From a virus: 30,751 nt of DNA. The notes under the pieces were generated by a model. The model saw nothing but the letters and a program-made list of their open reading frames with translations. It had not been told where the DNA came from and did no database searches. How positions within the stretch are numbered: position 1 is the first letter of the stretch; every line of letters begins with the position of its first letter. Below, in pieces: positions 1,447 to 23,597 of the stretch. A program made the translations under genes and the position numbers. The stretch spans positions 1 through 30,751 of IMG/VR virus record IMGVR_UViG_3300046450_000948. One strand, given 5' to 3'.

Positions 1447-1665
1447 ATGACGGTGAAGACCACACCCAGCCCCAAGGCACCACTGCTAGGTCTCCTGACC
1501 CTTCTCCTCATTTGTGGGGGAGGGTGTCAGAACCTCAAGACCGTCGAGGTGGGGTTTGGAGGGCTAGAGGTGGAGTATTTCCCCGGCCCTACGGAGGTAC
1601 TCCCACCGGTGTTTGTCCCCAAGTATGTTCCACGTAAAGTCCTCTTACCACGCACAACTAAGTGA
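1447..1665 (+). CDS. Small proline-rich lipoprotein, candidate outer-membrane spanin
   Basis: 72 residues, ATG preceded by AGAGGA. The N-terminus has a signal sequence with a hydrophobic core (LLGLLTLLLICGGGC) ending in a lipobox-like Cys at residue 27. The mature part is short and rich in Pro and Val. In T7-like phages the two spanin genes 18.5/18.7 (Rz/Rz1) lie between the small and large terminase genes, and Rz1 proteins are small Pro-rich lipoproteins, so an o-spanin role is plausible. I see no Rz-like partner with an N-terminal membrane helix and coiled coil in the same place. The stop overlaps the GTG of the large terminase by 4 nt, suggesting translational coupling. Confidence 0.6.
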   Translation: MTVKTTPSPKAPLLGLLTLLLICGGGCQNLKTVEVGFGGLEVEYFPGPTEVLPPVFVPKYVPRKVLLPRTTK

Positions 1666-3371
1666 AGTGTCCAACGGAATTACTGGACTTTAGGAACTTC
1701 CTCTACCTCACGTGGAAGCATCTAGGGCTCCCTGACCCTACCCCCACCCAGTACGACATAGCTGCGTATGTGGATAATGGGCCCCGACGGTGCTGCATTC
1801 AGGCCTTCCGGGGTGTCGGGAAGAGCTGGATTACGAGTGCCTATGTGTGTCACCAACTCCTCGTCAATCCTTCAGCAAATATCCTCGTGGTTAGTGCTTC
1901 TAAGACCCGAAGTGATGACTTCTCGACGTTTACCCTCCGGCTGATCAATGAGATGCCCGTTCTGAAGCACCTAATTCCCTCAGATGACCAGCGGAGCAGT
2001 AAGATAGCCTTCGATGTACGCCCAGCACCGGCTGCCCACGCCCCGTCCGTTAAGAGCGTAGGGATCACTGGGCAGCTTACTGGCTCGCGGGCTGACTTAA
2101 TCGTGGCTGATGACGTGGAATCCCTAAACAATAGCTTGACCCAGCAGATGAGGGACAAGATTCAGGAGACCATTAAGGAGTTTGACGCTGTCCTCAAGCC
2201 GAGTGGACGGATCGTCTATCTGGGGACACCCCAAACGGAGATGTCCATTTACAATGTCTTACCAGAACGAGGGTACGAAATTAGGGTATGGCCTGCCCGT
2301 ATCCCCACTGAGAAGACCAGAGAAGCCTACGGAGATAGACTCGCTCCCTACATCCTAGCAAAGTGCGAAGAAAAGGCCGAAGGCGCTCCTATTGACCCAG
2401 AAAGGTTCGATGATATTGATCTCAAGGAGAGGGAAGCCTCCTACGGAAAGAGCGGGTTTGCCCTTCAGTACATGCTCGATACCTCCCTATCTGACGTGGG
2501 TAGGTACCCCCTGAAGCTGGCAGACCTGATTGTACACCCCCTCGACTCCGACGTGGCCTCTCCTAAGCTCACTTGGGCCTCCTCCCCAGACCTAATATGC
2601 CAAGACCTTGCCTCTGTCGGCTTAGGGGCTGATCGCTTCTACAGGCCTATGGAGGTCGCTAAGGATCACCAGCCCTATGGGGGAGCCGTCATGGCTATCG
2701 ATCCCGCTGGTATGGGGAAAGACGAAACAGCCTACGCAATCGTTAAGATCCTGAATGGACAACTGTTTCTCACAGCCAGCGGAGGATTCCTAGGGGGATA
2801 CACTCCCCCCATCTTAAAAGCCTTAGGGAGACTTGCAAAAGACAACAAAGTCAATGAGATCATCATAGAGAGCAACTTTGGGGACGGCATGTTCTCTCAG
2901 CTCCTAAAACCAGTCTTAGCAGGGGATATAGGCTATCCAGTGACCATTGAAGAGGTCAAACACTCCACTCAAAAGGAAAGACGAATCATAGACACCCTTG
3001 AGCCCATCCTCAACTCCCATAGGCTCATAGTTGACCCTAAGGTAGTCCTGAATGACCTTGAATGTTGTAGAAGTGATTATGGAAGTGGTCGAACTGACAG
3101 CGAGCTGAGAGCGTCCCTTGTAGGGAGTAGCCAATTGTACCAATTGTTCTACCAACTGTCAAGGCTAACCTTCGATAGGGGTGCCCTTAGGCATGACGAT
3201 AGGCTAGATGCCCTCGCTATAGCCGTCGGTTACTGGGTCGAACACATGGAGAAACACGTAGATCAAGGCGTACAGGACTACTACGAGGACATCCAGAACG
3301 CTGAACTAGAGAAGTTCATGGAGTCCCATAACAAGATGTGGGGGACAGTAGAGAAGACTACGTGGATGTAA
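1662..3371 (+). CDS. Large terminase subunit, packaging ATPase/nuclease (gp19-like)
   Basis: 569 residues (T7 gp19: 586), GTG start overlapping the preceding TGA. Walker A lies at about residues 48-55 (AFRGVGKS). A long stretch nearly identical in pattern to T7 gp19 follows (SVKSVGITGQLTGSRAD, then the Walker B LIVADDVE), then a YLGTPQTEM coupling segment. The C-terminal nuclease domain begins with the acidic strand AIDPAGMGKDE (Asp347) and ends near HDDRLDALAI. The protein cuts concatemers and drives DNA into the prohead through the portal. It is the last gene before the 1.2-kb repeat-rich non-coding stretch, as expected for the right genome end of a T7-like phage. Confidence 0.97.
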   Translation: MKCPTELLDFRNFLYLTWKHLGLPDPTPTQYDIAAYVDNGPRRCCIQAFRGVGKSWITSAYVCHQLLVNPSANILVVSASKTRSDDFSTFTLRLINEMPVLKHLIPSDDQRSSKIAFDVRPAPAAHAPSVKSVGITGQLTGSRADLIVADDVESLNNSLTQQMRDKIQETIKEFDAVLKPSGRIVYLGTPQTEMSIYNVLPERGYEIRVWPARIPTEKTREAYGDRLAPYILAKCEEKAEGAPIDPERFDDIDLKEREASYGKSGFALQYMLDTSLSDVGRYPLKLADLIVHPLDSDVASPKLTWASSPDLICQDLASVGLGADRFYRPMEVAKDHQPYGGAVMAIDPAGMGKDETAYAIVKILNGQLFLTASGGFLGGYTPPILKALGRLAKDNKVNEIIIESNFGDGMFSQLLKPVLAGDIGYPVTIEEVKHSTQKERRIIDTLEPILNSHRLIVDPKVVLNDLECCRSDYGSGRTDSELRASLVGSSQLYQLFYQLSRLTFDRGALRHDDRLDALAIAVGYWVEHMEKHVDQGVQDYYEDIQNAELEKFMESHNKMWGTVEKTTWM

Positions 3372-3684
3372 CCTTTAGTGCAGTTCCCTGTCCGTTACGA
3401 TGTTACTCCCGGTCTCTAATTGGACACCTTTTGGTGCAATAATCCGAGAGGGTACACGTATATTCTATGCGTGATGTTACCCCCCGTGGGGGCTTTATGC
3501 TGGTTCCTCCACTAGTTAACGGCAGTTGAGCTACTGGTTGTTCGTTTGTGTTTGGCTATCTGTCCGGAAGCACCGCATAAATCCCAGTACGCTAACAACA
3601 GCAGGCTAAACCACTGAGCACCTAAGTCTCCATGCCCGGAACACGGCACACAAACAGCGAGCAAGCTCGTAGGGAACGAACGAT

Positions 3685-3760
3685 GCCTCCGGCGGCTCTC
3701 TACGAGGTGCTGAACTAAGCTAGTTCAACCGCAACCTAGCCTCCGGCGGCTCTACGAGGT
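3685..3760 (+). repeat. Direct repeat pair (about 22-24 bp) flanking a hairpin
   Basis: The sequence GCCTCCGGCGGCTCTC followed by TACGAGGT (3685-3708) recurs at 3739-3760 with only one TC dinucleotide missing. Between the copies lies a perfect 7-bp hairpin, TGAACTA-AGC-TAGTTCA (3711-3727). Each copy also sits inside a larger potential stem: CTCGTAG at 3667-3673 pairs with CTACGAG at 3699-3705, and AACCT just before copy 2 pairs with AGGTT at its end. Two copies only, so not a CRISPR. Confidence 0.75.
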
Positions 3761-3920
3761 TACACCGCATGGCGGTGACCAATGCTTCGCAATCAGAGTG
3801 TTCGGTAGGGCCGAAGAGGTTCCTCGGATGCCTCCTCACCAGACGGTCACGGCCCACGCTGGCGCTTGTGGAGCCTACGCAGTCGATGGTGAAGTGGTTC
3901 GCTCGGCTCACAAAGGTAAC

Positions 3921-3927
3921 ACTATCA
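3921..3927 (+). promoter_or_regulatory. ACTATCA motif, candidate phage-RNAP site (non-coding region)
   Basis: Exact ACTATCA preceded by AAC and followed by T. It is one of four copies in the gene-free stretch upstream of the first early gene. The core resembles the CACTATA core of T7-family promoters; promoter function is inferred. Confidence 0.4.
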
Positions 3928-4039
3928 TACACCTCGGATGCACTCGGTATATGGCCACCGAGGAAGCCCTGAGTGCCGCTAAAGCGGAAGGATGACGAGA
4001 GGTTAGCTCACCGCTGGCGCTATTCAATGGGTAATCCAT

Positions 4040-4046
4040 ACTATCA
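4040..4046 (+). promoter_or_regulatory. ACTATCA motif, candidate phage-RNAP site (non-coding region)
   Basis: Exact ACTATCA followed by T, in the gene-free stretch. No clear hairpin follows it. Function inferred from the recurrence of the motif. Confidence 0.35.
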
Positions 4047-4101
4047 TCCTCATTCCATCTATGGTTCACCAACCACGGGCTTCCTCTTCTCCTACAAACG
4101 G

Positions 4102-4108
4102 ACTATCA
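4102..4108 (+). promoter_or_regulatory. ACTATCA motif, candidate phage-RNAP site (non-coding region)
   Basis: Exact ACTATCA running directly into the second copy of the 17-bp direct repeat at 4108-4124. Function inferred. Confidence 0.35.
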
Positions 4109-4265
4109 CCTCGGATGCACTCGGCGCTTTCGTCCTAAGTCGCTACAACCCGGACGCTAACCAAATAGTGAGTCTCTTTAGAGAATAGAGAACGAAGCGG
4201 TTAGCCTCCGAATAACATGGAACCAACCCGAATAGTGATCACGAGCAAGCTCGCTCATAGGTGTT

Positions 4266-4296
4266 ACTATCAAAGAGGACGCAGGCTTACCTCTTT
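4266..4296 (+). promoter_or_regulatory. ACTATCA motif abutting a 7-bp hairpin upstream of the first early gene
   Basis: ACTATCA at 4266-4272 is followed without a gap by a perfect hairpin: AAAGAGG (4272-4278), an 11-nt loop, and CCTCTTT (4290-4296). The same order, motif then hairpin, is seen at 4966, 5771 and 9975. If the motif is a promoter, the hairpin would form at or near the 5' end of the transcript and could protect it. Confidence 0.5.
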
Positions 4297-4570
4297 GGGG
4301 GGTCGCTGCACGACGGCAGATTCTCAGTAGTTACTCTGAGTAAAGAACACGACCGCTTACGCTGTGATGAGATTCGGCCCTGCTTGCGTTTTTCCGGCTC
4401 CTTGAGCCGCCTTCGGCGACCTCGAATAACGTCGCTTACCTCGCATGAGAGCGTAGCAGCTAGCTCGGTCGGAAAAATGACGTTCCATCTTATCTAGGTT
4501 TTTATGTCTTGTGTGGGTAATGGCCGACGTGGCTGTTCACGCAAGTCAAAAAGAAAGATAACAGATACAT

Positions 4571-4933
4571 ATGAAACATAATGACCTAAGCACTGAGTTA
4601 CTGGACGCTGGCGACTTCAACGACATCCCTGAGGTGCACGTAAAGTACTCCTTCGACGTAATCCCAACTGGAGGCCAGTACGCTAAATTCCCAATAGGCT
4701 TACTAACCTGCGATCAGTGTTGGCCTAAGACTTACAGCGACGCGCAGCTCATCGCTAGTGCTGGCGGTAAGCTAATGATATCCCTAATCACCTTAGTGAG
4801 TAACGTCGAGCCCACCTCGGCTGCTTGGAAAGCTCGCGGGTGGACTATCATCTCGGTCACGACCAAAGCCCAACAAGAGACACTTGAGGCAGGCCAGCGG
4901 GTCGTGGCGCGGTGGAAAGCTGATCAATCTTGA
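4571..4933 (+). CDS. Hypothetical early protein, first gene after the genome-end region
   Basis: 120 residues. ATG follows an A-rich leader (AAAGAAAGATAACAGATACAT) with at most a weak ribosome binding site. No known motif. A single Cys pair (CDQC, about residues 47-50), no signal peptide, and a central hydrophobic stretch too short to be a clear membrane helix. An ACTATCA motif lies inside the gene at 4854. The stop (4931-4933) is followed directly by an intrinsic terminator. By position it would be among the first genes to enter the host, where T7-like phages place host-takeover genes, but nothing in the sequence shows such a role. Confidence 0.7.
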   Translation: MKHNDLSTELLDAGDFNDIPEVHVKYSFDVIPTGGQYAKFPIGLLTCDQCWPKTYSDAQLIASAGGKLMISLITLVSNVEPTSAAWKARGWTIISVTTKAQQETLEAGQRVVARWKADQS

Positions 4934-4935
4934 GG

Positions 4936-4956
4936 GATCAACAAGTTGATCTTTTT
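4936..4956 (+). terminator. Rho-independent terminator after the first early gene
   Basis: Perfect 7-bp stem GATCAAC-AA-GTTGATC (4936-4951) followed by TTTTT. It is part of a duplicated terminator-ACTATCA-hairpin cassette (second copy near 5722-5819). Confidence 0.8.
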
Positions 4957-4965
4957 CTAAACTCT

Positions 4966-4999
4966 ACTATCAAATTACATGACACGCAGGAAGTCCTGC
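4966..4999 (+). promoter_or_regulatory. ACTATCA motif plus hairpin upstream of gene at 5032
   Basis: ACTATCA at 4966-4972 with CTCT before it (same as the site at 9975), 10 nt after the terminator T-run. The hairpin GCAGG-AAGT-CCTGC is at 4986-4999. Placement between a terminator and the next gene is what a promoter restarting transcription would show. Inferred phage-RNAP promoter. Confidence 0.5.
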
Positions 5000-5031
5000 A
5001 CACACACAAACACAAACATACATCAATAAAC

Positions 5032-5697
5032 ATGAAGACATCAGACACAGTAACGAACGTCGCCGCACGCGAGCTGAGCAAGGCACACACCAAAGCGTCC
5101 CTTGTTGACCTCCACCTCGACAGCGTACTCCTCAACAGGAGGCTCTCCGAGGAAGTCGCGGCTCTCAGGGCCGCAGCCGAAGGGTCTAACCGCCGGAAGT
5201 TCATCCCATCGGTCGAAGAGAATAGCTTCTTCACGGTCTGCCTACTAAAGAAGGGAATCCCAGTAAAGACCAAGCAGAAGGACGGCACTGCTCGCCACAT
5301 GGGCGAAACCACCTCCCGTTATGTAAATGACGGTCAGAGGACGAAGCACGGGCGATACACGTCCACATGCACCTGTAAATGCGGGGCGGTGAACATCATC
5401 GACCGCACATTCGAGATGCGTGTGCAATTCGGCAAAAACAAGGCCGGAGGGTACTGGGTGAACGGCAAGTTCTTCGTCGAGGACTCTGGGGATACTATCA
5501 CCAACACTAAGACCACGGCGACGGGCACCGACAAGGACTTCTCGACGTCCGAGGATGGCACTCAGACACCCACTGGCGAGATGCCGGAAGTGCGTAACGC
5601 ACAGCAAGAAGAAACGGCCAAGGCTGAAGGGCAGCGCTCACGGATACAGACAGCCGGGGAGCCCAAGACACACCTCCCATACACGATAACGCCGTAG
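5032..5697 (+). CDS. Hypothetical early protein with CxCxC cluster
   Basis: 221 residues from ATG 5032. A longer in-frame extension to a TTG at 4930 would run through the terminator and motif, so it is rejected. The N-terminal half (about residues 8-50) is helical with a possible coiled coil (LDSVLLNRRLSEEVAALRAAAEG). A STCTCKCG segment near residue 122 clusters three Cys residues and might bind metal. The last 70 residues are Thr/Glu/Ser-rich and probably disordered. No family is recognised. The start follows a CACACACAAACACAAACATA leader lacking a Shine-Dalgarno. The gene is bounded on both sides by copies of the same terminator-motif cassette, so it looks like a self-contained transcription unit. 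Confidence 0.75.
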   Translation: MKTSDTVTNVAARELSKAHTKASLVDLHLDSVLLNRRLSEEVAALRAAAEGSNRRKFIPSVEENSFFTVCLLKKGIPVKTKQKDGTARHMGETTSRYVNDGQRTKHGRYTSTCTCKCGAVNIIDRTFEMRVQFGKNKAGGYWVNGKFFVEDSGDTITNTKTTATGTDKDFSTSEDGTQTPTGEMPEVRNAQQEETAKAEGQRSRIQTAGEPKTHLPYTITP

Positions 5698-5736
5698 GCC
5701 CTGCGTCGCTTGCGATCCCCTTGATCAATCTTGAGG

Positions 5737-5755
5737 GATCGCAAGCGATCTTTTT
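5737..5755 (+). terminator. Rho-independent terminator after the gene at 5032
   Basis: Perfect 6-bp stem GATCGC-AA-GCGATC (5737-5750) followed by TTTTT. The stem differs from the copy at 4936 by matched changes on both arms. Confidence 0.8.
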
Positions 5756-5770
5756 CTAAGCTCTTATATA

Positions 5771-5792
5771 ACTATCACGCAGGAAGTCCTGC
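5771..5792 (+). promoter_or_regulatory. ACTATCA motif directly followed by hairpin, upstream of gene at 5822
   Basis: ACTATCA (5771-5777), one base, then the perfect inverted repeat GCAGGAAGTCCTGC (5779-5792). The preceding CTTATATA resembles the CTTATTTC before the site at 8839. Candidate phage-RNAP promoter with a hairpin at the transcript start. Confidence 0.5.
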
Positions 5793-5821
5793 ACATACAT
5801 AAACACAAAAACATCAAACAA

Positions 5822-6028
5822 ATGAACGATACAGAGAAAAGCGAGCTCATCCAGTGGGCTCAAGACCACTATCACAGTCTGTGCGGCGTCTCCGGTGGCA
5901 TCAAAGCCATCTGGCATCCTGTTGTACGTCGCGAAATGCGGCGGCTCCGGGCTTCGCAGATGCGGCGGTTCAAGGAGATTGTCCTCGCCCAAGCCGTCAC
6001 CCCTATTTACCCGAAAGGGGGAAAGTAA
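5822..6028 (+). CDS. Small basic hypothetical protein
   Basis: 68 residues, ATG after an A/C-rich leader. The C-terminal half is Arg-rich (RREMRRLRASQMRRFKE), predicted helical, possibly nucleic-acid binding, but no family is recognised. It contains an internal ACTATCA at 5868 (encoding HYH). The stop overlaps the next start (TAATG at 6026-6030), so it is probably translationally coupled to the RlpA-like gene. Confidence 0.65.
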   Translation: MNDTEKSELIQWAQDHYHSLCGVSGGIKAIWHPVVRREMRRLRASQMRRFKEIVLAQAVTPIYPKGGK

Positions 6029-6387
6029 TGGGGATCTACAGACTTGCGCTGTCGGTAATTCTTGGAGGCTCATGCTTCTTCCTATTTGCCGAATCGAATG
6101 AAACGACAACAGCCTCCTATTACGGTGAGAAATACCGGGGCAAACCAACCGCATCGGGTGAATTATTCAACCCAGATAAGCTGACGGCAGCCATGTGGGA
6201 CGTGCCCTTCGGCTCCCTAATCGAAGTTCACTATCATGACAAGGTAGTGGTGGTCAGGATCAACGACCGAGGCCCTGCCAAAAGGCTCAAGAGAGGCATC
6301 GACCTCTCGAAGGCTGCCTTCAAAGCGCTGGCTCCACTTGAGCTAGGCCTGATAAAAGTCAAACTAATCAAAAGGAAGGGCATATGA
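6028..6387 (+). CDS. Secreted RlpA-like double-psi beta-barrel protein
   Basis: 119 residues. ATG 6028 is preceded by AAAGGGGG and overlaps the previous stop, so a longer in-frame extension upstream (to 5854) is rejected. Residues 1-21 look like a signal peptide. The rest is a nearly complete RlpA-type DPBB domain: ASYYGEKYRGKPTASGE (29-45), LTAAMWDVPFG (52-62), VVVVRINDRGP (73-83), IDLSKAAFKAL. In Pseudomonas RlpA, a lytic transglycosylase acting on denuded glycan strands, conserved Glu, His and Asp are important. Here Glu45 and Asp80 are present but the His position appears to be Met56. It lacks the SPOR domain of cellular RlpA. It probably acts on cell-wall glycan in the periplasm; an early-region wall enzyme is unusual. 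It may be inactive or altered because of the His change. Confidence 0.85.
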   Translation: MGIYRLALSVILGGSCFFLFAESNETTTASYYGEKYRGKPTASGELFNPDKLTAAMWDVPFGSLIEVHYHDKVVVVRINDRGPAKRLKRGIDLSKAAFKALAPLELGLIKVKLIKRKGI

Positions 6388-6731
6388 AAAGTATTATCGG
6401 TGGAGATAATTACGCCGGGGAGTTCCCAGAAGTGCCGAAGGGCGATGGCAAGCCGACCTATGACCGCATCAGTGAAATCATGAGGCGAAAGCTCCTCACA
6501 GGCGAATGGGCCTCAAATGGGGGAGCCGACGATAAGCTGATCCGCGCTTTCCGAGAAAGTGGGTTGTCCGTTGATAAGTTCATCGCGAAGGCTGACAAGC
6601 TCAAGGCAGAAAACACAGTTGCAGGTAAAGCCAAGAAGGCCCACCTAAGGAAGCTACGGACTGCTGCATACAAACGACAGAAAGCACGAAAGCAAAACAT
6701 TTCCCCGGATAAAACGGGACAACACAAGTGA
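6384..6731 (+). CDS. Basic hypothetical early protein
   Basis: 115 residues, ATG overlapping the RlpA-like stop by 4 nt (ATGA). The C-terminal third is very Lys/Arg-rich (KKAHLRKLRTAAYKRQKARK), which suggests nucleic-acid binding. The N-terminus is neutral with no membrane segment. No family recognised. It overlaps a GTG of the next frame by 4 nt, consistent with one polycistronic message 5822-7684. Confidence 0.65.
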   Translation: MKSIIGGDNYAGEFPEVPKGDGKPTYDRISEIMRRKLLTGEWASNGGADDKLIRAFRESGLSVDKFIAKADKLKAENTVAGKAKKAHLRKLRTAAYKRQKARKQNISPDKTGQHK

Positions 6732-6760
6732 ACACAAATAAAACACAAAACGAAACAGAA

Positions 6761-7684
6761 ATGACCACGCATGAGCAAACAGAACTGGGATACGATCCTA
6801 GTAATAGCAGCCCTAGTCTGGATGCTCCTTGTTTACAAGGGGTGCCAGTACTTGCCGACCCACCTCGACCATCCAAGAGGGTGGTATCAGACGAACTCCG
6901 GAAGAAAGTCATCGCTACTGGTAGCGGCCTCCGATTCCTTACCCTCGCAAACCCTAAGATTATCAAGGGGCTTGAGCATGGGTATGCAACAGCAATCCTA
7001 CATCTGGCTCCTGCCAACTACAGCGGGCATACCGTCTGTAAACGGTTCAGTCAATGTAGTACGACATGCCTCTATCATCAAGGTAGGGGAATAATGCCAA
7101 ACGTGCAGAAAGCACGGATTAGAAGAACACGTGAGCTCATGGAAAACCGTGAGGAAGCGATGAGTGAAATCGTGCTGGAATTACGCAAAATCCAGAAGAA
7201 ACTGAACAAGCTCAACTACTCGCTGCCTTTTGCTTATTCCGATGCGCCAGACATCAAGTTAGCATGCAGGCTTAACGGATTGTCCGACCTAACGTGGGAG
7301 ACAATGCTCATACACGATAACGCCGTAGGGAATGATGAAGGGGAGACCATATTCGATATCTTCCCAGACGTTCAGTTCTACGACTATACGAAATACACGT
7401 ATGGTACCCGGCCAGCATGGAAAAACATGCCAGCCAACTATCACCTAACCTTCTCCTTCGATGGGAGAGAACTTGACGTCGATAACGCCAAGGAAGTGTT
7501 AGGCCACGGGCACAACGTAATGGTTGTGCATAACAAAGAGAACTACAAACATGCTTCAATCAGCAACAGTCGTATCTGGGGTTACCCAACACACGACGCT
7601 GAAGAACATGATCTTAGATTCACCGACCCAAGGCCTGTGGTCTTAGTCGGTAGAGAAAAAGGCTACTCTCAAATAGCCATTTAA
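6761..7684 (+). CDS. Gp88-family protein with conserved cysteines
   Basis: 307 residues from ATG 6761, chosen because it follows an A/C-rich leader like other starts here. A GTG at 6728 (318 residues) overlapping the previous stop is the alternative. The diagnostic stretch is HTVCKRFSQCSTTCLYHQGRG, then an NVQKARIRRTRELMENREE helix, matching the phage gene product 88 family seen in mycobacteriophages and marine phages: C-x5-C-x3-C followed by the aRirRT motif. The C-terminal half carries YSDAPDIKLACRLNG, and the FYDYTKYT and NYHLTFSFDGREL segments are typical of the same family. Biochemical function is unknown; the Cys cluster suggests a metal site. It is followed by a DUF932 gene. Confidence 0.75.
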   Translation: MTTHEQTELGYDPSNSSPSLDAPCLQGVPVLADPPRPSKRVVSDELRKKVIATGSGLRFLTLANPKIIKGLEHGYATAILHLAPANYSGHTVCKRFSQCSTTCLYHQGRGIMPNVQKARIRRTRELMENREEAMSEIVLELRKIQKKLNKLNYSLPFAYSDAPDIKLACRLNGLSDLTWETMLIHDNAVGNDEGETIFDIFPDVQFYDYTKYTYGTRPAWKNMPANYHLTFSFDGRELDVDNAKEVLGHGHNVMVVHNKENYKHASISNSRIWGYPTHDAEEHDLRFTDPRPVVLVGREKGYSQIAI

Positions 7685-7708
7685 CCAATAACAGCAATAA
7701 AAAATAAT

Positions 7709-8791
7709 ATGCAAGGATGCAACATACAGAACCTAGAGGGGCAATCGATCTATTCGACGGCCGAAGCAGTAACCGCAGCAGGACTCAACTGGGAAGTTGA
7801 CGATGGCCGTATCAAGCTAGAGACCTACGACCGGGAGACCGGAACGAATCAGTGGGTCGATCTGGACTCTCACAAAGGAGTATTCCGAAAGGATGCGCCC
7901 GGACGGGGATTAGGCCAGTGCGTGGTGGGGCAGGGCTTCGAGCTCGTCCAAAATACCGAGGCATTCCGATGCTTCGACAAGATACTCAGTGCCCAACGAG
8001 CACAGTTTGTCTCAGGAGGTCACTATCATAATGGTGCCTCAGTGTTCCTGCAGTGCCGCCTACCGTACGAAGCCAACATTGGCAACGGGGATACCACCGA
8101 ACGGTATCTGTTAATCGCTCAAGGCCATACCGGCCAGCAGGCGTTAACCATGAAGTTCACACATATCCGACCTGTGTGTAGTAACACGTTGTTCGCAGCG
8201 CTTAGGGACTCGAAGTACACCTTCAGCCTGAAGCACACGAAGAACTATAAGAACAAGCTCGAACAAGCCGTCGAGTACATGAAGGAGGGCCTCGGTCATC
8301 TCGATCATGTGGAAAAGAAGTTCAATCAGATGGCAGTCTTCGGGTTATCCGAGAGAGAGCAGATGAACTACCTGAAGCTCTGCTACGACCGACCCATTGA
8401 TGAAGACCTCAAGGATTGGCGTAAGTGGGGAGCTCTGGAGTTCGTCTATCACAACGCTAAAGGGAAGAACAAGAGCGAGGGTACCATCTGGCACGGCTTC
8501 AATGTCGTAACAGAGTACGAAGACCATCACGCACCTGTTAACAACCCGCGAGGACGTGCAGGTATCTATCAGGAACCCGCGATGGTATCACAAGGTAGGC
8601 AAGTAAGAGCCTTGTTCGGTAACAGCACCGTGTCGCGTAAGACGAAAGCCTTCACACTGGCGGATGACGTCATTATGGGACGGCTCGACCTAAAGACGGG
8701 TAGGAAACCGGGTAAGAAGTTTGCTGGCATCAGCTTAGGAATAGGAGCTGGAGCCGCAGCAGTCGCAGGTCAGCACCTTCTGACGTTCTAA
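7709..8791 (+). CDS. DUF932 (phage/plasmid-like, TIGR03299-type) protein
   Basis: 360 residues, ATG after an A-rich leader. Residues about 45-330 follow the DUF932 pattern: GRGLGQCVVGQGFELVQNTE, ERYLLIAQGHTGQQALTMKFTHIRPVCSNTL, and a late segment with RALFGNSTVSRKTKAF. This family is widespread in phages and plasmids and often lies near replication or recombination genes; its biochemical activity is not established. The last about 30 residues form a Gly/Ala-rich hydrophobic tail (GISLGIGAGAAAVAGQ), an oddity for a soluble protein. A terminator follows directly after the stop. Confidence 0.85.
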   Translation: MQGCNIQNLEGQSIYSTAEAVTAAGLNWEVDDGRIKLETYDRETGTNQWVDLDSHKGVFRKDAPGRGLGQCVVGQGFELVQNTEAFRCFDKILSAQRAQFVSGGHYHNGASVFLQCRLPYEANIGNGDTTERYLLIAQGHTGQQALTMKFTHIRPVCSNTLFAALRDSKYTFSLKHTKNYKNKLEQAVEYMKEGLGHLDHVEKKFNQMAVFGLSEREQMNYLKLCYDRPIDEDLKDWRKWGALEFVYHNAKGKNKSEGTIWHGFNVVTEYEDHHAPVNNPRGRAGIYQEPAMVSQGRQVRALFGNSTVSRKTKAFTLADDVIMGRLDLKTGRKPGKKFAGISLGIGAGAAAVAGQHLLTF

Positions 8792-8796
8792 TCAGT

Positions 8797-8837
8797 AGGG
8801 AGTCATGTTGCTAACGCAGCGTGGCTCCCTCTTATTT
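8797..8837 (+). terminator. Intrinsic terminator after the DUF932 gene
   Basis: AGGGAGTCATG (8797-8807) pairs with CGTGGCTCCCT (8820-8830) as an 11-bp stem with two G-U pairs, followed by CTTATTT. The T-run is interrupted, so strength is uncertain. An ACTATCA motif follows one base after the tail. Confidence 0.6.
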
Positions 8838-8838
8838 C

Positions 8839-8845
8839 ACTATCA
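8839..8845 (+). promoter_or_regulatory. ACTATCA motif immediately before the ATG at 8848
   Basis: CACTATCAT lies between the terminator at 8797 and the start codon at 8848. If transcription starts within or just after the motif, as the T7 promoter core would imply, the message for the 53-residue gene would be leaderless or nearly so. Inferred. Confidence 0.45.
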
Positions 8846-8847
8846 TT

Positions 8848-9009
8848 ATGAGGAACAAGATAATAAAAGAAGAAATAACATCTCTGAACATTTGGAAGTA
8901 TTATCCAAAATCAGACTGGAGCGAAGGGTCTTACAACGACATCTTCAGAAAGGCCGCTGATGCCAAGCGCAAAAAGTACGGCACAACCGCAGCTTACAAC
9001 GGCTATTGA
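8848..9009 (+). CDS. Small hypothetical protein
   Basis: 53 residues from ATG 8848. A longer frame from GTG 8821 would start inside the terminator and is rejected. Lys-rich, with no membrane segment; the YYPKSDWSEGSYNDIF segment is not recognised. It is followed after 2 bases by the glycosylase-like gene, so the two are likely cotranscribed from the ACTATCA site. Confidence 0.55.
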   Translation: MRNKIIKEEITSLNIWKYYPKSDWSEGSYNDIFRKAADAKRKKYGTTAAYNGY

Positions 9010-9011
9010 CC

Positions 9012-9725
9012 ATGAAAAAAGACTATGCAGCCGCAGGGACGAGCCAGATCGATCCAAAAAACATCACCCACTACTACCGATCTAGGGTAGAGCTGGAATT
9101 ATTCTTCATCTTTGCCATCTTCGTCGCCAACAAACCAAGCGACATCACCGCAAAGAAAGTCAACGCAATGTTCCTCCCTAGGACAGACAACCCAATCAAC
9201 ATTGCCGTCTATCAACGAACTACTGACCTACGAGGAGAACCAAGAACAGGCTATCCAGAAGCATTAGTCCGAGACGAAGGGATACACAGCCCCTTCGAGT
9301 TCATTGAAATCCTCGTCCAATTACAGCTAGTCACTGAATGGTTGGAATACTGGAAAGTAGGACAATATAAAAGACTCACTCGCACTATCATCGAGATTGA
9401 CCAAATGTTCAACCGAGATGATCTGGTAGACCTTGACGGGCCTAGCAATCCACGTGCGTTTGAACAGTTGCATGGTGTAGGGCGAAAAACCTCAAGGTTC
9501 TTCCTCATCCACTCCCAACAAGATGCCATGTATGGCGTATTAGACACTCACGTACTGAAGTGGCTCAAGCGAGTATATAGGACAACTGCCATCAGCACTC
9601 CATCAAGTTATAAAGACTACAAGCTGCTAGAAGGTTTGTTCCTTGGAGAATGTATGAAGTGGCAGAAAACATGTGCCGACATGGACAGCATGATCTGGAA
9701 TAGCTATCATAATCTAGAAGCGTGA
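9012..9725 (+). CDS. HhH-GPD DNA glycosylase/AP lyase-like protein (EndoIII superfamily)
   Basis: 237 residues from ATG 9012; a TTG two codons earlier overlaps the previous stop and is not preferred. The helix-hairpin-helix LHGVGRKTSRF carries Lys159 in the place of the catalytic Lys of endonuclease III (LPGVGRKTA). GVLDTHVLKWL gives Asp178, spaced 19 residues on, as in the GPD Asp of the family. There is no C-terminal FeS Cys cluster (the only nearby Cys residues are in ECMKWQKTCADM). The family removes damaged or modified bases and can cleave the abasic site. The N-terminal 130 residues are helical and not recognised. The gene ends just before a very strong terminator. Substrate cannot be predicted; it could protect phage DNA or attack host DNA. 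Confidence 0.75.
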   Translation: MKKDYAAAGTSQIDPKNITHYYRSRVELELFFIFAIFVANKPSDITAKKVNAMFLPRTDNPINIAVYQRTTDLRGEPRTGYPEALVRDEGIHSPFEFIEILVQLQLVTEWLEYWKVGQYKRLTRTIIEIDQMFNRDDLVDLDGPSNPRAFEQLHGVGRKTSRFFLIHSQQDAMYGVLDTHVLKWLKRVYRTTAISTPSSYKDYKLLEGLFLGECMKWQKTCADMDSMIWNSYHNLEA

Positions 9726-9829
9726 CCAATTTAGTGGTGGTCAACTAAAAACAAAACCCGGCGGAACGAAAGGCCGCCTTTAGTCTAATGGTTTTGGGTT
9801 AAGGTTGGGCAAGAGCCACCACTGCAACT

Positions 9830-9878
9830 AGGGGTTCGGAGGGTGTCCTAAAAAGATACTCTCTGAGCCCCTTTTTTT
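9830..9878 (+). terminator. Very strong intrinsic terminator before the RNAP region
   Basis: An 18-base arm (9830-9847, AGGGGTTCGGAGGGTGTC) pairs along its full length with 9855-9872 (GATACTCTCTGAGCCCCT), using four G-U pairs, around a CTAAAAA loop, and is followed by seven T residues (9872-9878). The direction is + only. It would stop the early transcripts before the polymerase genes. Confidence 0.9.
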
Positions 9879-9902
9879 CTGTTCAATCTCTACTAGCGCT
9901 CC

Positions 9903-9949
9903 GCGAGTAGCCCAGGCCCTCCGCAAGCTCCGGAGCTTGGGCGACTCGC
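9903..9949. repeat. Large palindromic structure
   Basis: Outer arms GCGAGT (9903-9908) and ACTCGC (9944-9949) continue inward with GCCCA/TGGGC and enclose a perfect 16-bp palindrome CAAGCTCCGGAGCTTG (9924-9939). No T-run follows, so it is not a terminator. It could be a protein-binding site, a replication element or an RNA-processing site. Confidence 0.7.
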
Positions 9950-9974
9950 TCCATCCAACCCTCAACTAACCTCT

Positions 9975-9994
9975 ACTATCACAGACCTGTCTGT
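9975..9994 (+). promoter_or_regulatory. ACTATCA motif fused to a 6-bp hairpin, upstream of HNH/RNAP genes
   Basis: ACTATCA (9975-9981) overlaps by its last base the perfect hairpin ACAGAC-CT-GTCTGT (9981-9994). The preceding bases AACCTCT closely match the AAACTCT before the site at 4966. If it is a phage promoter, the polymerase gene would be under positive autoregulation. Confidence 0.5.
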
Positions 9995-10000
9995 CGGTAC

Positions 10001-10030
10001 TTGACATTTTCCATCAGCGCTTCCTAATCT
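10001..10030 (+). promoter_or_regulatory. Sigma70-like host promoter for the HNH/RNAP genes
   Basis: A perfect -35 box TTGACA (10001-10006), an 18-base spacer and TAATCT (10025-10030) as -10. A start about 7 bases downstream would fall at or inside the ATG at 10036, so the HNH message would be leaderless, or the real target is the RNAP gene further down. The host polymerase must make the phage polymerase before phage promoters can work, so a host promoter here makes sense. Confidence 0.55.
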
Positions 10031-10035
10031 TTGGA

Positions 10036-10257
10036 ATGCGTGATTACGGAGACGAGTACAAAAGATTCCACGCAAAGAAGAAGCAGATCAAGAGGCGTGC
10101 CGCACGAAACAAAAGCCGCGCCGATATGGTCAAAGCTGGAAGAGTTTCAAAAGGGGACGGCCTAGATGTTGACCACAGAGATCGCAACCCACATAATAGA
10201 TCCAGAAAGAATCTCCGAGTTCAATCTAAAAGCCAGAACCGATCTCGTAATTCTTAA
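10036..10257 (+). CDS. Small HNH-like nuclease-type protein
   Basis: 73 residues, very basic. The C-terminal half DVDHRDRNPHNRSRKNLRVQ plus SKSQNRSRN follows the HNH pattern (D-H first metal/catalytic motif, N in the NPHNR loop, NLR, then a terminal N), a pattern common to phage HNH proteins of T7-like and marine phages. There is no separate DNA-binding domain. It may act as a homing-type or packaging-associated endonuclease, but activity is not shown. It lies directly downstream of the sigma70-like promoter and 96 bases before the RNAP start. Confidence 0.65.
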   Translation: MRDYGDEYKRFHAKKKQIKRRAARNKSRADMVKAGRVSKGDGLDVDHRDRNPHNRSRKNLRVQSKSQNRSRNS

Positions 10258-10291
10258 CTTTGAGCCGTACCGACGTTTCTCGTGGGGTTTT

Positions 10292-10313
10292 GGTGTTGTG
10301 GTCACACCTTTTT
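10292..10313 (+). terminator. Possible attenuator between HNH and RNAP genes
   Basis: GGTGT (10292-10296), a 7-nt loop, ACACC (10304-10308), then TTTTT and a C-run. The stem is only 5 bp, so termination would be partial at most. It lies in the leader of the RNAP gene if GTG 10354 is the start. Confidence 0.4.
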
Positions 10314-10353
10314 CCCCCATCTCTTCACGTGGGTGCGGCTCTTTCTTCCACCA

Positions 10354-12570
10354 GTGAACGGAACCACCGCAATACAAGAGGGTAAACGTAGATACAACGC
10401 CAAGGTTAGGCGCTTATCTGAGAAATCTCAGGAATCTAAAACGGTACATGGGAAATACCTCTACCGCCACCTGTCGAAACAGCTGAATAAAGCGATTGGG
10501 GACTTCCTAGATAAGGCTACTCGCGGCCGCGCAGGTATCTATCATGCGGAGTTCCTCTGTCTTAAAGAGTTGAAGACAGCAGTTATTTCCCACATAAGCA
10601 TGACCAACCTTCTGGACACCTTAACCAAGCCCCAGAAGCGTACCGCTGTCGCCTTTAGGATCGGGCAGGGCCTCCTCGACGAGATCGCCTTCCGGCGGTT
10701 GAAGGTCAACCATAAGATGTGGTGGAAAAGGTTACACTCGAAGATCCTTCGCAGGAGTGCCTACAAGTTCAGACGGGCTCTTGCCATCAGAGCTGCTAAT
10801 CAAGACTTCAAGGATTCGTGGAGGATAGACATTGCTGCTGCTTCTGCTGTCCCTATAGGTATTACCTTAATTGAGCTAATACGTACCTCTACTGGATTGG
10901 TAGGGTATGAGAAGAGGAAGCTAGGTAAGAATAAGACCGCCTACTACCTAGTGCCCACACAGGAGACCATTCGTTGGGTAGGAGAGTTCCATCGAAGAGT
11001 CTCTCGTCTCTCACCTTACTTCTCACCAGTCATGGAGGTGCCTCCTAAGTGGGTCTCGGTGGAGAAGGGAGGATACGACCTTCCTATAGACATAAACTGG
11101 AGCTTTATTAAAAGGAACGTCGGGGTGAACAAAGAGAGGTATCCTACAGAGAGCCTCAAGTTAGCATTCTCCGCAGCAAACTGCCTACAGGAGGTACCTC
11201 ATAGGGTCTCCTCTAAAACCCTGCAGGCTGTCCTTGAGTTACAGAAAAGGGAATTATTAAAGGACGTACACGTTCAGTTGAGCGACGAAAGGGCCCCTAT
11301 AGGTACGGAGGGGTATCGAGCGAGTCAAGCCTTAATGTATTCTCGGAGGAGAAAACTTATCCCGAAGTTGTTAACAATACATAATATTCTAAACAGAGCG
11401 AGGAGCCTCAAGGATCACACCATCTGGTTCCCCACTCAGGCAGACTTCCGGGGTCGCCTCTATTATGTCCCGAAAGTTTATAACCCTCAGGGGCCTGACT
11501 TGGCTAGGGGCCTGATCGAATTTGCTGAGCCTCAATCGGTACGTGGGAGTGAGCATTGGTTTCTGATCGGAGGGGCCAATCGGTACGGCATCAAGGGTAC
11601 CTTCCAAGATCGTCAAGACTGGGTGATGAAGCATGAGAAGGAGATCAAAGCGGTTGCCCGTGACCCCATTGCTCATCGTTCATTCTGGTGTGACTGTGAC
11701 AGCCCCATCGAGTTCCTCCAGTGGTGTATGGAGTTTGTCAATTGGATTGCCAATCGGATTACCTTCAAGACTCATCTCCCGGTGAAGCTCGACCACACCG
11801 CAAGTGGTCTACAGATCGTCGCCCTCGTCCGTCAGGACAAAGAGCTGCAACGTCTAACCAACCTCGCAGGCGGGAGCCAGCCTATCGACATATACCAACT
11901 GGTTCTCGACAGCATGAAGGTGAAGATACTGGCTACCGGAAGTCCGGAGTTGATCACATGGCTGTCGATGGGGCTCGACCGTAAGCTCATCAAATTATTG
12001 ACCGTCATGTACATGTATGGGGGAACCCCTCATGGCCTACAGAAGCTGGTCACCGAGTGGTACATGGAACGAGGGAATGACGTATTCGGGAAGAGCATCT
12101 ACATTGAGATACGGAAGCTCCTCGTGGTGTACCATGAAGCATTGAATGAGCTATCGGAGAGCCCTCATAGCTTCATGAAGGAATGTCGTAAGAAGGTGAA
12201 GAAAGACGAGACACTATCATGGACGTCACCGAGTGGCTTCCCTGTCAGTAATACCTACCTTGGCTCCCGTGTAACTCGCATACGGACTACGATCAATGGG
12301 GAACGGATCAGCTTCCACCTCGCGCAGCCTGACGGCACCCTCTCATACCGGAGAGCCTGCAATGCGGTCGCTGCTAACACTGTCCATTCCCTTGATGCTG
12401 CCCTCCTGCACCACGTCCTCCACGATTTTGACAAACCCGTTCAAGCACTCCATGACTGCTATGGGGTACCACCTGCAGATGTTGAGTATTTGCAGGGAAA
12501 AATAAAAAGTTCATTGGGGTTGATATTTGGGGTTGACACGGCGGCTGACCTTCATTACGTTGTTTCTTGA
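10354..12570 (+). CDS. T7-type single-subunit DNA-directed RNA polymerase
   Basis: 738 residues from GTG 10354. A GTG at 10282 would add an unlikely 24-residue Cys/Phe-rich lead that spans a hairpin with a T-run. Catalytic residues are intact: motif A Asp480 (KLDHTASGLQ), motif B Arg543/Lys547/Tyr555 (RKLIKLLTVMYMYGG, T7 R627/K631/Y639), NTVHSLDAA, and motif C His700-Asp701 (ALHDCYG, T7 H811-D812). T7 RNAP has 883 residues; the missing length is mainly in the N-terminal domain. The loop after SPSGFPV, which in T7 recognises promoter bases, is clearly different from T7, so a different promoter is expected. The enzyme transcribes phage genes. It is expressed after an early block of about 6 kb rather than as the first gene as in T7. 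An ACTATCA lies inside at 12213. Confidence 0.97.
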   Translation: MNGTTAIQEGKRRYNAKVRRLSEKSQESKTVHGKYLYRHLSKQLNKAIGDFLDKATRGRAGIYHAEFLCLKELKTAVISHISMTNLLDTLTKPQKRTAVAFRIGQGLLDEIAFRRLKVNHKMWWKRLHSKILRRSAYKFRRALAIRAANQDFKDSWRIDIAAASAVPIGITLIELIRTSTGLVGYEKRKLGKNKTAYYLVPTQETIRWVGEFHRRVSRLSPYFSPVMEVPPKWVSVEKGGYDLPIDINWSFIKRNVGVNKERYPTESLKLAFSAANCLQEVPHRVSSKTLQAVLELQKRELLKDVHVQLSDERAPIGTEGYRASQALMYSRRRKLIPKLLTIHNILNRARSLKDHTIWFPTQADFRGRLYYVPKVYNPQGPDLARGLIEFAEPQSVRGSEHWFLIGGANRYGIKGTFQDRQDWVMKHEKEIKAVARDPIAHRSFWCDCDSPIEFLQWCMEFVNWIANRITFKTHLPVKLDHTASGLQIVALVRQDKELQRLTNLAGGSQPIDIYQLVLDSMKVKILATGSPELITWLSMGLDRKLIKLLTVMYMYGGTPHGLQKLVTEWYMERGNDVFGKSIYIEIRKLLVVYHEALNELSESPHSFMKECRKKVKKDETLSWTSPSGFPVSNTYLGSRVTRIRTTINGERISFHLAQPDGTLSYRRACNAVAANTVHSLDAALLHHVLHDFDKPVQALHDCYGVPPADVEYLQGKIKSSLGLIFGVDTAADLHYVVS

Positions 12571-12594
12571 CGTGCGGATTACCGCTTAGCGTCA
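12568..12594 (+). other. Hairpin at the RNAP stop codon
   Basis: TGACG-T-GCGG (12568-12577), ATTA, CCGC-TTA-GCGTCA (12582-12594) forms an interrupted stem beginning at the RNAP stop codon. No T-run follows, so it is more likely an RNA-processing or stabilising element than a terminator. Confidence 0.4.
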
Positions 12595-12621
12595 CCTAAA
12601 ACCGAGAGACAGAAACGAGAA

Positions 12622-13269
12622 ATGACAAAAAACAAAAAGGCGCAACATGTCGCCATGACCACACCAGAAGCCACAGCCGTTTACACTCACTTGAGTGAGC
12701 CGGACATTAAGTTCGAGAAACCCGGCTGGTACAAGATCACCTTCTCGCTCCCTGATAAGGACGCGAAGGCATTCGAGAAGACTCTCAATGGAGAGCTTCA
12801 AGCACACCTCAAGGCCCTCAAAGTTAATGGGGATACACCCACTAAGGTGAACCCAGTCGAGGGTAAGAGGATTACAGCACCGGACGGCAAGGAGCAGATT
12901 CTGTTCACTGCCAAGCTACGGCCGTACTTCACGTCCAACAAGGATGACTCCAAGATTTATCAGAGGCCTCAAGTCTTTGATGGCATGGCGAAGCCGATGG
13001 GGGAACTCATTGGTTCTGGGAGTAAGGTGAAAGTGGCTATGCACTTGATTCGATACAACACAGCGATGGCCACTGGGGTCACCTTACGACTCAAGGCTGT
13101 GCAGTGCCTCAATTTGGTTCGTGTTGGAGGGAACGAAGCAGAAGATCACGGATTTGGTGTGATCGAAGGGGGCTTCGAGTCTACTACCAAAGACGAACCA
13201 ATATCCACTACTGTGACCATCAGTAGTACTCCCAACGAAATCGATCCCAGTTCAGCGTCTGACTTCTGA
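12622..13269 (+). CDS. Single-stranded DNA-binding protein (gp2.5-like)
   Basis: 215 residues (T7 gp2.5: 232). The pattern of a GWYKITFSLPDKDAKAF strand, a long loop with LRPYF and an IYQRPQVFDG segment, GELIGSGSKVKVAM, and TLRLKAVQCLNLV is that of T7-like SSBs. The C-terminus is acidic/Ser-rich and ends in Asp-Phe, like the T7 tail that contacts polymerase and helicase. It coats single strands during replication and recombination. Position after RNAP and before endonuclease I matches T7 order. ATG follows an A/G-rich leader. Confidence 0.9.
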   Translation: MTKNKKAQHVAMTTPEATAVYTHLSEPDIKFEKPGWYKITFSLPDKDAKAFEKTLNGELQAHLKALKVNGDTPTKVNPVEGKRITAPDGKEQILFTAKLRPYFTSNKDDSKIYQRPQVFDGMAKPMGELIGSGSKVKVAMHLIRYNTAMATGVTLRLKAVQCLNLVRVGGNEAEDHGFGVIEGGFESTTKDEPISTTVTISSTPNEIDPSSASDF

Positions 13270-13292
13270 AGGTAGTTCCATGAGGTCAGCCG

Positions 13293-13661
13293 ATGGGTTC
13301 TATAGCACACGCGTATAGGAGTAAGCTCGAATGGGGGATGGGGCACCTGCTGGAGACAGAAGGTGTTCCATTCTCCTACGAGCCTACCCGCTTGGATTAT
13401 CTGAAGAAGCACACGTACCTACCAGATTTCTGGCTGGACGAGCAAGGCTACTTCATTGAGACCAAGGGTCGCTTCTTCGCTCAGGATCGCGCTAAGCACC
13501 TGCTTGTGAAGGCGCAGAATCCTAACACGGAAGTCCGGTTCGTCTTCCAGCAGCCCAACAATAGGCTGAGCAAGAAGAGTCGGACAACCTACGCTGAATG
13601 GTGCGAGAAGCACGGCTTCCTGTGGAGCGGTAAGAAGGTGCCCCGGTCATGGTTCTCATAA
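13293..13661 (+). CDS. Endonuclease I, Holliday junction resolvase (gp3-like)
   Basis: 122 residues (T7 gp3: 149). Active-site residues are in order: Glu13 (SKLEWG), Asp45 (YLPDFWL), Glu56 and Lys58 (FIETKGRF), matching T7 E20, D55, E65, K67. The downstream DRAKHLLVKAQNP and VRFVFQ segments are typical. The enzyme resolves branched phage DNA and, in T7, helps degrade host DNA. The T7 N-terminal swap helix is shorter here. ATG 13293 lies 23 bases after the SSB stop. Confidence 0.95.
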   Translation: MGSIAHAYRSKLEWGMGHLLETEGVPFSYEPTRLDYLKKHTYLPDFWLDEQGYFIETKGRFFAQDRAKHLLVKAQNPNTEVRFVFQQPNNRLSKKSRTTYAEWCEKHGFLWSGKKVPRSWFS

Positions 13662-13897
13662 GACCGCACAAGGCAACCCACGCCGCCCTAGAGACCGCCG
13701 AAGGTAAGAAGGCACTCGTCGCTATAGACGACCTTGATACCCTCGAAGGCACAGCAGGATCGCTCACATGGATGAGGGTGACCAAACAGGGACAAGAAGT
13801 TATAAAAACAATAATGTTTGATGGACAAATAGAAAGTTTAGAAAGTGACTACCGAAAACACAAATCCAAATCAAAAAGACGAAAGCCAACTAGTTAG
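13649..13897 (+). CDS. Small hypothetical protein between endonuclease I and primase-helicase
   Basis: 82 residues, overlapping the end of endonuclease I (13 nt) and the start of the primase-helicase (53 nt). N-terminal two thirds look like a small mixed alpha/beta fold; the last 15 residues are Lys/Arg/Ser-rich. T7 has lysozyme (gp3.5) in this place, but nothing here resembles an amidase: it is far too short and lacks the zinc-binding His residues. No family recognised. Confidence 0.55.
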   Translation: MVLIRPHKATHAALETAEGKKALVAIDDLDTLEGTAGSLTWMRVTKQGQEVIKTIMFDGQIESLESDYRKHKSKSKRRKPTS

Positions 13898-15494
13898 ACA
13901 TGGCCCCTGCTCTAGCTGCAACAGTAGTGACGCTGTGGGGGTCTACGACGATGGACATGGGTATTGCTTCAGTTGTGATACCTTCCATAGCGACTACGAT
14001 AAGGTCGCCGAGACGCCCCAGAAGGCGACCGAGGAGTATACCAATCACTCCTCCCTTGCCAACGTAACATACAGCACCCTTCACAAGCGTAAGGTCAGTG
14101 AAGAGACCTGCCGATTCTGGCAGTATGAAGTGGGGGAATACAATGGACGCCCTGTCCAGATTGCCAACTACTTCACCACTGAAGGTGAGCGCATCTCGAA
14201 GATCAGGTTTCCCGACAAGGACTTCCTCGTTCTTGGCAAAGGGAAGCTACCTCTATATGGCTCGCAGCTCTGGCAGAATAGCTATGGGCGGAGTGCCAAA
14301 ATGGTGGTGGTGACTGAAGGTGAGATTGACGCCATGTCGGTGAGCCAACTCATGGAGAATCGCTGGCCTGTCGTCAGCGTTCCCAACGGGGCAGCCGGAG
14401 CCGTCAAGGCCTTCAAGGAGAACCTCGAATGGCTACAGCGCTACGAGTCAGTCATCATCATGTTTGACAACGACAAGGTAGGCCAAGAGGCAGCGGACAA
14501 ATGCTCCCAAGTACTAGCTGTCGGCAAGGCGAAGATCGCTAATCTCCCTCTCAAGGATGCCAATGACATGCTGGTTGCTGGACGTGGAAAGGAGTTAATC
14601 AATGCGGTCTGGAACGCCAAGTCATGGCGACCTGACGGGATCGTCTCCGGTTCTGATCTGTGGGACATCATCAACAAGGATGACTCCTGCATGTCCCACA
14701 TGTACCCGTGGAACGGCCTCAACACGATGACTCATGGTCTACGTGAAGGAGAGATCGTAACGCTCTGTGCAGGCTCAGGAATTGGCAAGAGTGCCATCTG
14801 TAAGGAGTTCGCATATCATCTACTATCATCCAAGCAGACTATCGGCTACATCGCACTGGAGGAGTCTACCAAGCGCACCGCCTTGGGCCTGATGGGACTG
14901 CACATGAACAAGCCCATCTTCCTCAACCCGCAAGACCATGATGAGGCGGAAAAGAAGGCAGCGTTCGACGCAACGGTCGGATCTGGCAACTACTACGCCT
15001 ATGACCATTGGGGCTCCCTCGGTGAAGAGAACCTGCTCTCGAAGATTCGCTATCTGGTGACCAGCGTGGGTTGCAAGATCATCTTTCTTGATCACATATC
15101 CATCGTGGTTAGTGGCATGGAGGGAGGCGACGAGAGGCGCATGATCGACAACACCATGACCAAGCTTCGCTCACTCGTGGAGGAACTCTCCTTCGGGCTG
15201 GTATTAGTATCACACCTGAAGCGACCAGACGGTAAGGGACATGAAGAGGGGGCTCGTACCACTCTCGCGCAGCTTCGGGGATCAGCCTCGATTGCTCAAC
15301 TGTCCGACATCGTAATTGGGTTGGAGAGGGATCAGCAGAACCCTGAAACGTCACACCTCACTACCGTTCGGATTCTCAAGAATCGGTGGTCTGGTCAGAC
15401 GGGGAATGCCACATGGCTGGAGTACAGTGAAGAGACTGGCCGCTTGAACGAAACGGAGCCACCGGAAGATGCTGATGACACTAACGACTTCTGA
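13845..15494 (+). CDS. Primase-helicase (gp4-like)
   Basis: 549 residues (T7 gp4A: 566), GTG start overlapping the previous gene. The N-terminal zinc finger has Cys22, Cys25, Cys41, Cys44 (CSSC ... CFSC). A TOPRIM domain follows (VVVTEGEIDAMS, VIIMFDNDKVGQEAA). The RecA-like helicase domain starts with Walker A GSGIGKS at 310-316, then Walker B KIIFLDHISIVVSG and the H4 segment VLVSHLKRP. The C-terminus is acidic and ends in Asp-Phe, as in T7, where it contacts the polymerase. It unwinds DNA and makes primers at the fork. The zinc finger is present, so primase activity is likely. Internal ACTATCA at 14822. Confidence 0.97.
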   Translation: MTTENTNPNQKDESQLVRHGPCSSCNSSDAVGVYDDGHGYCFSCDTFHSDYDKVAETPQKATEEYTNHSSLANVTYSTLHKRKVSEETCRFWQYEVGEYNGRPVQIANYFTTEGERISKIRFPDKDFLVLGKGKLPLYGSQLWQNSYGRSAKMVVVTEGEIDAMSVSQLMENRWPVVSVPNGAAGAVKAFKENLEWLQRYESVIIMFDNDKVGQEAADKCSQVLAVGKAKIANLPLKDANDMLVAGRGKELINAVWNAKSWRPDGIVSGSDLWDIINKDDSCMSHMYPWNGLNTMTHGLREGEIVTLCAGSGIGKSAICKEFAYHLLSSKQTIGYIALEESTKRTALGLMGLHMNKPIFLNPQDHDEAEKKAAFDATVGSGNYYAYDHWGSLGEENLLSKIRYLVTSVGCKIIFLDHISIVVSGMEGGDERRMIDNTMTKLRSLVEELSFGLVLVSHLKRPDGKGHEEGARTTLAQLRGSASIAQLSDIVIGLERDQQNPETSHLTTVRILKNRWSGQTGNATWLEYSEETGRLNETEPPEDADDTNDF

Positions 15495-23486: not shown

Positions 23487-23597
23487 CCTGTTACGACAGA
23501 CAACTTGAAGGACATCTTGTAAGGGATTGTATAAGATCGGAGTGAGTGCTTCGGTCGCTTAGTTGTTTAGAAATAGTAATAAGGAAATAAAAATCAT
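23487..23597 (+). promoter_or_regulatory. Leader of the capsid gene with a weak sigma70-like element
   Basis: 111 non-coding bases before the capsid ATG. TTGAAG near 23505 and TGTATAAGAT near 23528 could be -35 and -10 boxes, though the spacing (17 or 19) depends on alignment. T7 has its strongest phage promoter (phi10) in this place, but no ACTATCA is present. An AATAAGGAAATAAAAATC leader with AAGGA sits before the ATG. Confidence 0.3.

Follow-up and report, generated by a model that had tools for sequence, protein, structure and literature searches.

Genes and features of the locus

The window, by which we mean the whole stretch of DNA analysed (30.75 kb), is part of a T7-like phage genome with its main genes all on the + strand. 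Besides the features listed below, it carries early genes and genes for SSB, endonuclease I, primase/helicase, DNA polymerase, exonuclease and portal. Among the large proteins searched, the nearest annotated relatives share less than 60% identity, and the phage group is therefore essentially uncultured. Relatives were gathered through terminase, helicase, RNA polymerase and GP88 matches. Rfam and tRNA searches returned no matches.

1662-3371, + strand: terminase
4921-5028, + strand: cassette copy 1, with head, terminator-like stem (4936-4951), T-run (4952-4956), ACTATCA (4966-4972), hairpin (4986-4999) and ACACAAA-rich leader
5032-5697, + strand: gene between the cassettes
5722-5819, + strand: cassette copy 2, with head, stem (5737-5750), T-run (5751-5755), ACTATCA (5771-5777), hairpin (5779-5792) and leader
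10036-10257, + strand: 73-aa HNH endonuclease (PF13392), candidate nickase
10282-12570, + strand: T7-like single-subunit RNA polymerase (RNAP)

The terminase is followed by 1.2 kb that is nearly gene-free (window 3372-4570) and contains four copies of ACTATCA together with short repeats, among them CCTCCGGCGGCTC and CACCTCGGATGCACTCGG. A sigma-70 promoter of good quality was not found in this interval. At the other end of the window, 5' of the capsid gene (23487-23597), a UACG-loop hairpin covaries among relatives (CTGT-TACG-ACAG, CTGA-TACG-TCAG and CCGA-TACG-TCGG) and is followed by a second, varying hairpin in two of three relatives. Judged by its sequence, the UACG-loop hairpin looks like a conserved RNA element. 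A search for a late promoter upstream of the capsid gene found no repeated word.

A duplicated cassette with an identical hairpin

The preliminary description had proposed that the stretches at 4921-5028 and 5722-5819 are two copies of one cassette, and the duplication proved to be real, with the parts in order. The head TGATCAATCTTGAGGGATC is 100% identical at 4921-4939 and 5722-5740, and is followed in both copies by the stem and T-run, GATC..TTTTTCTAA(A/G)CTCT. The hairpin/leader block beginning CACGCAGGAAGTCCTGCACA is 94% identical between 4983-5016 and 5776-5809, and the blocks in common range from 87 to 100% identity. The 14-nt hairpin GCAGGAAGTCCTGC is the same in both copies, as had been claimed; it matches exactly at these two places only in the window and folds into 5 bp with a 4-nt loop.

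Compensating changes in the terminator-like stems were confirmed in part. The two stems, GATC-AA-CAAG-TT-GATC and GATC-G-CAAG-C-GATC, can both pair, but one G-C pair stands in place of two A-T pairs and the exchange is not one for one. A generic terminator scan flagged neither stem, as its rule calls for more G-C pairs than either contains. In copy 2, a 13-bp inverted repeat (CGCTTGCGATCCC / GGGATCGCAAGCG, window 5706-5748) can form a longer hairpin that would compete with the terminator stem. ACTATCA has been kept up independently of its spacing to the hairpin, in agreement with the suggestion that the motif was retained at a shifted place; the differing distance would be accounted for by selection on ACTATCA as an element in its own right. 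The repeat CACCTCGGATGCACTCGG behaves likewise, lying 3' of ACTATCA at 3921 and 4102 at unequal distances. A search with 18-mers of the cassette yielded, apart from the cassettes, matches to unrelated coding sequence.

ACTATCA marks one strand of the early and middle region

ACTATCA is not specific to the cassettes, yet it is their important part. The window contains 17 copies on the + strand and none on the - strand, all within 3921-14822, against an expectation of about 2-3 (3.5 when both strands are counted). Seventeen copies were reached in none of 100 shuffles of the window, and ACTATCA is its strongest over-represented 7-mer (z 9.6). The sites, all on the + strand, are as follows.

3921-3927, +: nearly gene-free left region
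4040-4046, +: nearly gene-free left region
4102-4108, +: nearly gene-free left region
4266-4272, +: nearly gene-free left region
4844-4850, +: within an early gene, frame 0
4966-4972, +: cassette copy 1; predicted + strand nick between 4968 and 4969 (ACT^ATCA)
5494-5500, +: within the gene between the cassettes
5771-5777, +: cassette copy 2; predicted + strand nick between 5773 and 5774
5868-5874, +: within an early gene
6230-6236, +: within an early gene (DPBB domain)
7437-7443, +: GP88-like gene, NYHL codons; also in six of seven distinct relatives
8022-8028, +: DUF932 gene
8839-8845, +: directly 3' of a hairpin at 8797-8830
9384-9390, +: within an early gene
9975-9981, +: upstream of the HNH gene and RNAP; contig L094 starts exactly at the orthologous position
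12213-12219, +: RNAP gene; relatives at 42-68% identity retain CTATCATGG
14822-14828, +: primase/helicase gene; CTACTATCA codons kept in contigs G001 and L096

The early regions of the clade (125 kb) hold 131 copies on the + strand, where 15.6 are expected, and none on the - strand; the late regions (90 kb) hold none on either (7.4 expected on +, 4.6 on -). ACTATCA is also the most over-represented 7-mer in the relatives' early regions. The long contigs G001, G002 and G011 carry it on one strand only and in the early part, with the terminase as landmark, and two further long contigs carry 11 and 6 sites, again on one strand only. A logo of 114 distinct sites reads (T)ACTATCA(Y), sharply bounded and with flanks that hold no information, while one-base variants lie at background in the clade.

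Codon-preserving shuffles separated the word from the protein sequences that contain it. Early and middle coding sequence holds 16 copies against 3.9 expected, and late coding sequence holds none against 9.6 expected on the + strand and 5.0 on the - strand (the latter P 0.005). Coding sites occur in all three reading frames. Moreover, the RNAP word CTATCATGG and the helicase word CTACTATCA are kept between distant relatives, at places where outgroups encode other residues. Because the word is in excess over codon shuffles, free of reading frame and conserved base by base in the RNAP and helicase genes, we conclude that selection acts on an exact nucleotide word in a fixed orientation.

In the Pelagiphage-like L084, in HTVC025P (L355) and in P-RSP2 (L357), ACTATCA favours the strand that does not carry the majority of genes (9 vs 0, 7 vs 0 and 8 vs 2, respectively). 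From the sequences, this skew possibly reflects nicks on the template strand.

Some contig ends lie at or just past ACT^ATCA

By our count, some 21 clade contigs have their left end in the early/middle region. Three of them (L094, L098 and L205) start exactly with ATCA, and their homologues (window position 9975, L097 and L203) have ACT directly before it. Right ends fall 6-36 nt past ACT^ in 9 of the 29 clade contigs running beyond the terminase; random positions give 1.5, and 9 was reached in none of 20,000 trials, a statistic that is partly post hoc since the pattern was first spotted by inspecting the initial contigs. The same end pattern is present in contigs added afterwards (L205, L212, L256 and L286), and ACTATCA is the 7-mer most frequent near contig ends. 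Contigs of the window's own species end at places other than ACTATCA sites.

These ends, which are few, lend indirect physical support, read from assembled sequence, to a break at ACT^ATCA. Given standard library chemistry, exact left ends and overshooting right ends would fit a + strand nick that was sheared and then end-repaired. End repair would make the right-hand fragment begin precisely where the nicked strand has its 5' end, and the left-hand fragment would end at a chance shear point of the opposite strand.

ACTATCA as a predicted single-strand nick site

ACTATCA, in its fuller form TACTATCAY, is very probably the site that a sequence-specific single-strand nickase, encoded by the phage, recognizes and cuts. 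The + strand, non-template for all main genes, would be cut as ACT^ATCA at many early and middle-third places, giving localized single-strand interruptions in virion DNA as in tf/LUZ24, phiKMV and T5. We infer that most virions carry the break as a nick and that a phage enzyme is responsible for it. The nicks might have a part in how the first-entering early end is handled, be it in entry, in relief of torsion or in a repair- and recombination-linked start of replication. This is our guess at the likeliest role, because the early end of a T7-like phage enters first and the template strands would stay intact. Each cassette then combines a duplicated terminator-like stem, a predicted nick site and a hairpin leader, its nick site being one among many.

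The cassettes had originally been read as apparent transcription boundaries that would stop one unit and restart the next, with a 5' hairpin that may protect the mRNA. The duplication and the upkeep of ACTATCA find support. ACTATCA is also often preceded by a hairpin or T-run and located at a gene start (ACTATCATG), in relatives as in the window, and several clade genes start within ACT^ATCATG. The restart role of ACTATCA is not supported. Under that reading, the word would be a short promoter at which the T7-like RNAP begins anew past each terminator, with ACTAT at -6 to -2 and the start at A. Its likeness to the ACTAT of T7-type promoters and its location 3' of hairpins or T-runs and 5' of ATG speak for such a promoter, as does a specificity loop (R[TS]T[IV]N.E) that is fairly conserved in the clade. 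However, a T7-like promoter would be expected to show an extended motif, about 13-20 bp long, that recurs in middle and late genes, whereas the 114 sites hold no information beyond 9 nt, lack weaker variants and are absent from all late genes. The word also recurs within conserved RNAP and helicase codons and in every frame, and is common to phages whose RNAPs are 42-67%, or even 26%, identical. LUZ100 and RHEph01 have different words of 8 nt or longer that run through the late region. A promoter would moreover leave the contig ends at ACT^ATCA unexplained, and we consider it very unlikely.

Could the word instead act in RNA? As a tag of early and middle mRNAs, it would be where an endoribonuclease or RNA-binding regulator acts to shut down early expression. 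Its restriction to the sense strand of early and middle regions, in any frame and in coding and non-coding sequence alike, is what such a tag would produce, as is its avoidance in late genes on the + strand. Late genes, however, avoid the word on the - strand as well, it is DNA contigs that break at the site, and single-strand nicks in DNA have been documented in other phages at a word almost identical to this one. The chance that this reading is correct appears slim.

The sites might also be recombination or mosaic junctions, with contigs ending there since strains differ downstream; cassette and repeat modules do abut ACTATCA at varying distance, and contig ends lie near it. Yet the word is conserved in place within codons of the RNAP and helicase genes, and three contigs starting exactly at ATCA would not arise from a branching assembly graph, so that only the faintest likelihood is left to junctions. 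Several further candidates were rejected: a sigma-70 -10 element (no -35 partner, position 8 free), TTACCTGTC as a phage promoter (merely a companion of some ACTATCA sites), and Chi-like, stoperator, sRNA-seed and RegB/MazF ideas, none of which explains the contig ends at ACT^ATCA.

If the nick-site reading is true, a large uncultured T7-like clade carries dense, strongly selected and region-limited nick sites, which would show that the feature matters in nature. It would also provide many genomes for comparing the places that keep nicks with those that avoid them, and would show that metagenomic contig ends can reveal nicks.

A candidate nickase upstream of the RNA polymerase

The HNH gene lies directly upstream of RNAP in the main-group clade contigs that span that place; it was not found in the motif-bearing contigs L097 and L098. 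In phage tf (L356), an unannotated HNH-like ORF at 16126-16413, overlapping tf_29, matches the window's HNH protein (E about 1e-5 to 1e-6). The tf ORF is kept in LUZ24-like phages (80-90%, including Rembedalsseter and Bjorn) and at about 60% in Kuraviruses. As predicted from its HNH homologue, Bjorn carries TACTRTGMC 18 times on one strand and never on the other. Kuravirus NJ01 and Aeromonas phage LAh_8 have homologues 61-63% identical to the tf protein, yet they are without such a motif.

The HNH protein may be the enzyme that makes the nicks, although the link is weak and we rate it well below even odds. On the same doubtful footing, it would nick in both groups, the word having shifted from TACTRTGMC to TACTATCAY, with sites confined to the first-entering early/middle third since nicks there would act in genome entry or in starting replication. 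Candidate targets for the HNH protein or the tf ORF would be TACTATCAT or TACTGTGAC, with the predicted cut after TACT.

Comparison with known nick systems

T5 has been known for decades to carry programmed nicks in its virion DNA, and a few Pseudomonas phages were later added to it; there is no agreement on what the nicks do. T5 (R/GCGCRGG; genes sciA and sciB) resembles the phages described here in having site-specific nicks in one virion DNA strand; it differs in its word, tolerates minor sites, carries its word also in the un-nicked strand and is an unrelated phage. The phiKMV-like nicks also occur in T7-like phages, site-specifically and on one strand, but at an unrelated word that is longer than ACTATCA (CGACxxxxxCCTA/CTCCGG; as quoted in PMC3517423). 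The promoters of LUZ100 and RHEph01 (the latter called a promoter by analogy) are likewise repeated words on one strand; they are longer and genome-wide, including late genes, and ACTATCA is neither.

The closest likeness is to tf/LUZ24-type interruptions. Mapping in phage tf placed 14 nicks, all on a single strand, within TACT^RTGMC; 11 of the 14 lie in the left half, and three other sites with a single mismatch were intact (PMC3517423). Rembedalsseter shows 13 strand-specific coverage breaks at WACTRTGAC (PMC11780129), and sequencing reads of the LUZ24-like phage P1-14Or01 end inside GTACTATGAC (PMC3634792). The exact 14-mer of the cassette hairpin, GCAGGAAGTCCTGC, is present in tf (L356, around 12525-12553), 7 nt upstream of the verified nick site sci8, which is probably a coincidence.

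A literature search for the word ACTATCA found nothing, and the sites described here would represent a tf-type nick site with a new word in a T7-like clade that is uncultured; as far as we found, no earlier report describes such interruptions for this marine-type group. Both systems have an exact short word starting with TACT, with sites on one strand, mostly in the left part, and some at start codons; annotated tf CDSs start right at the nick, as several clade genes start within ACT^ATCATG. The break follows TACT in tf and is predicted to do so here from the three contigs that start at ^ATCA, and other one-mismatch sites go unused in tf much as variants lie at background here. In contrast to the words of tf and LUZ24 (TACT^RTGMC / WACTRTGAC), the word here is TACT^ATCAY, with C instead of G at position 7, and TACTRTGMC occurs once on the + strand and never on the - strand of the window. 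Unlike tf and LUZ24, the phages here are T7-like with their own RNA polymerase, and, unlike in tf, their sites end after the helicase gene and leave the late half wholly empty.
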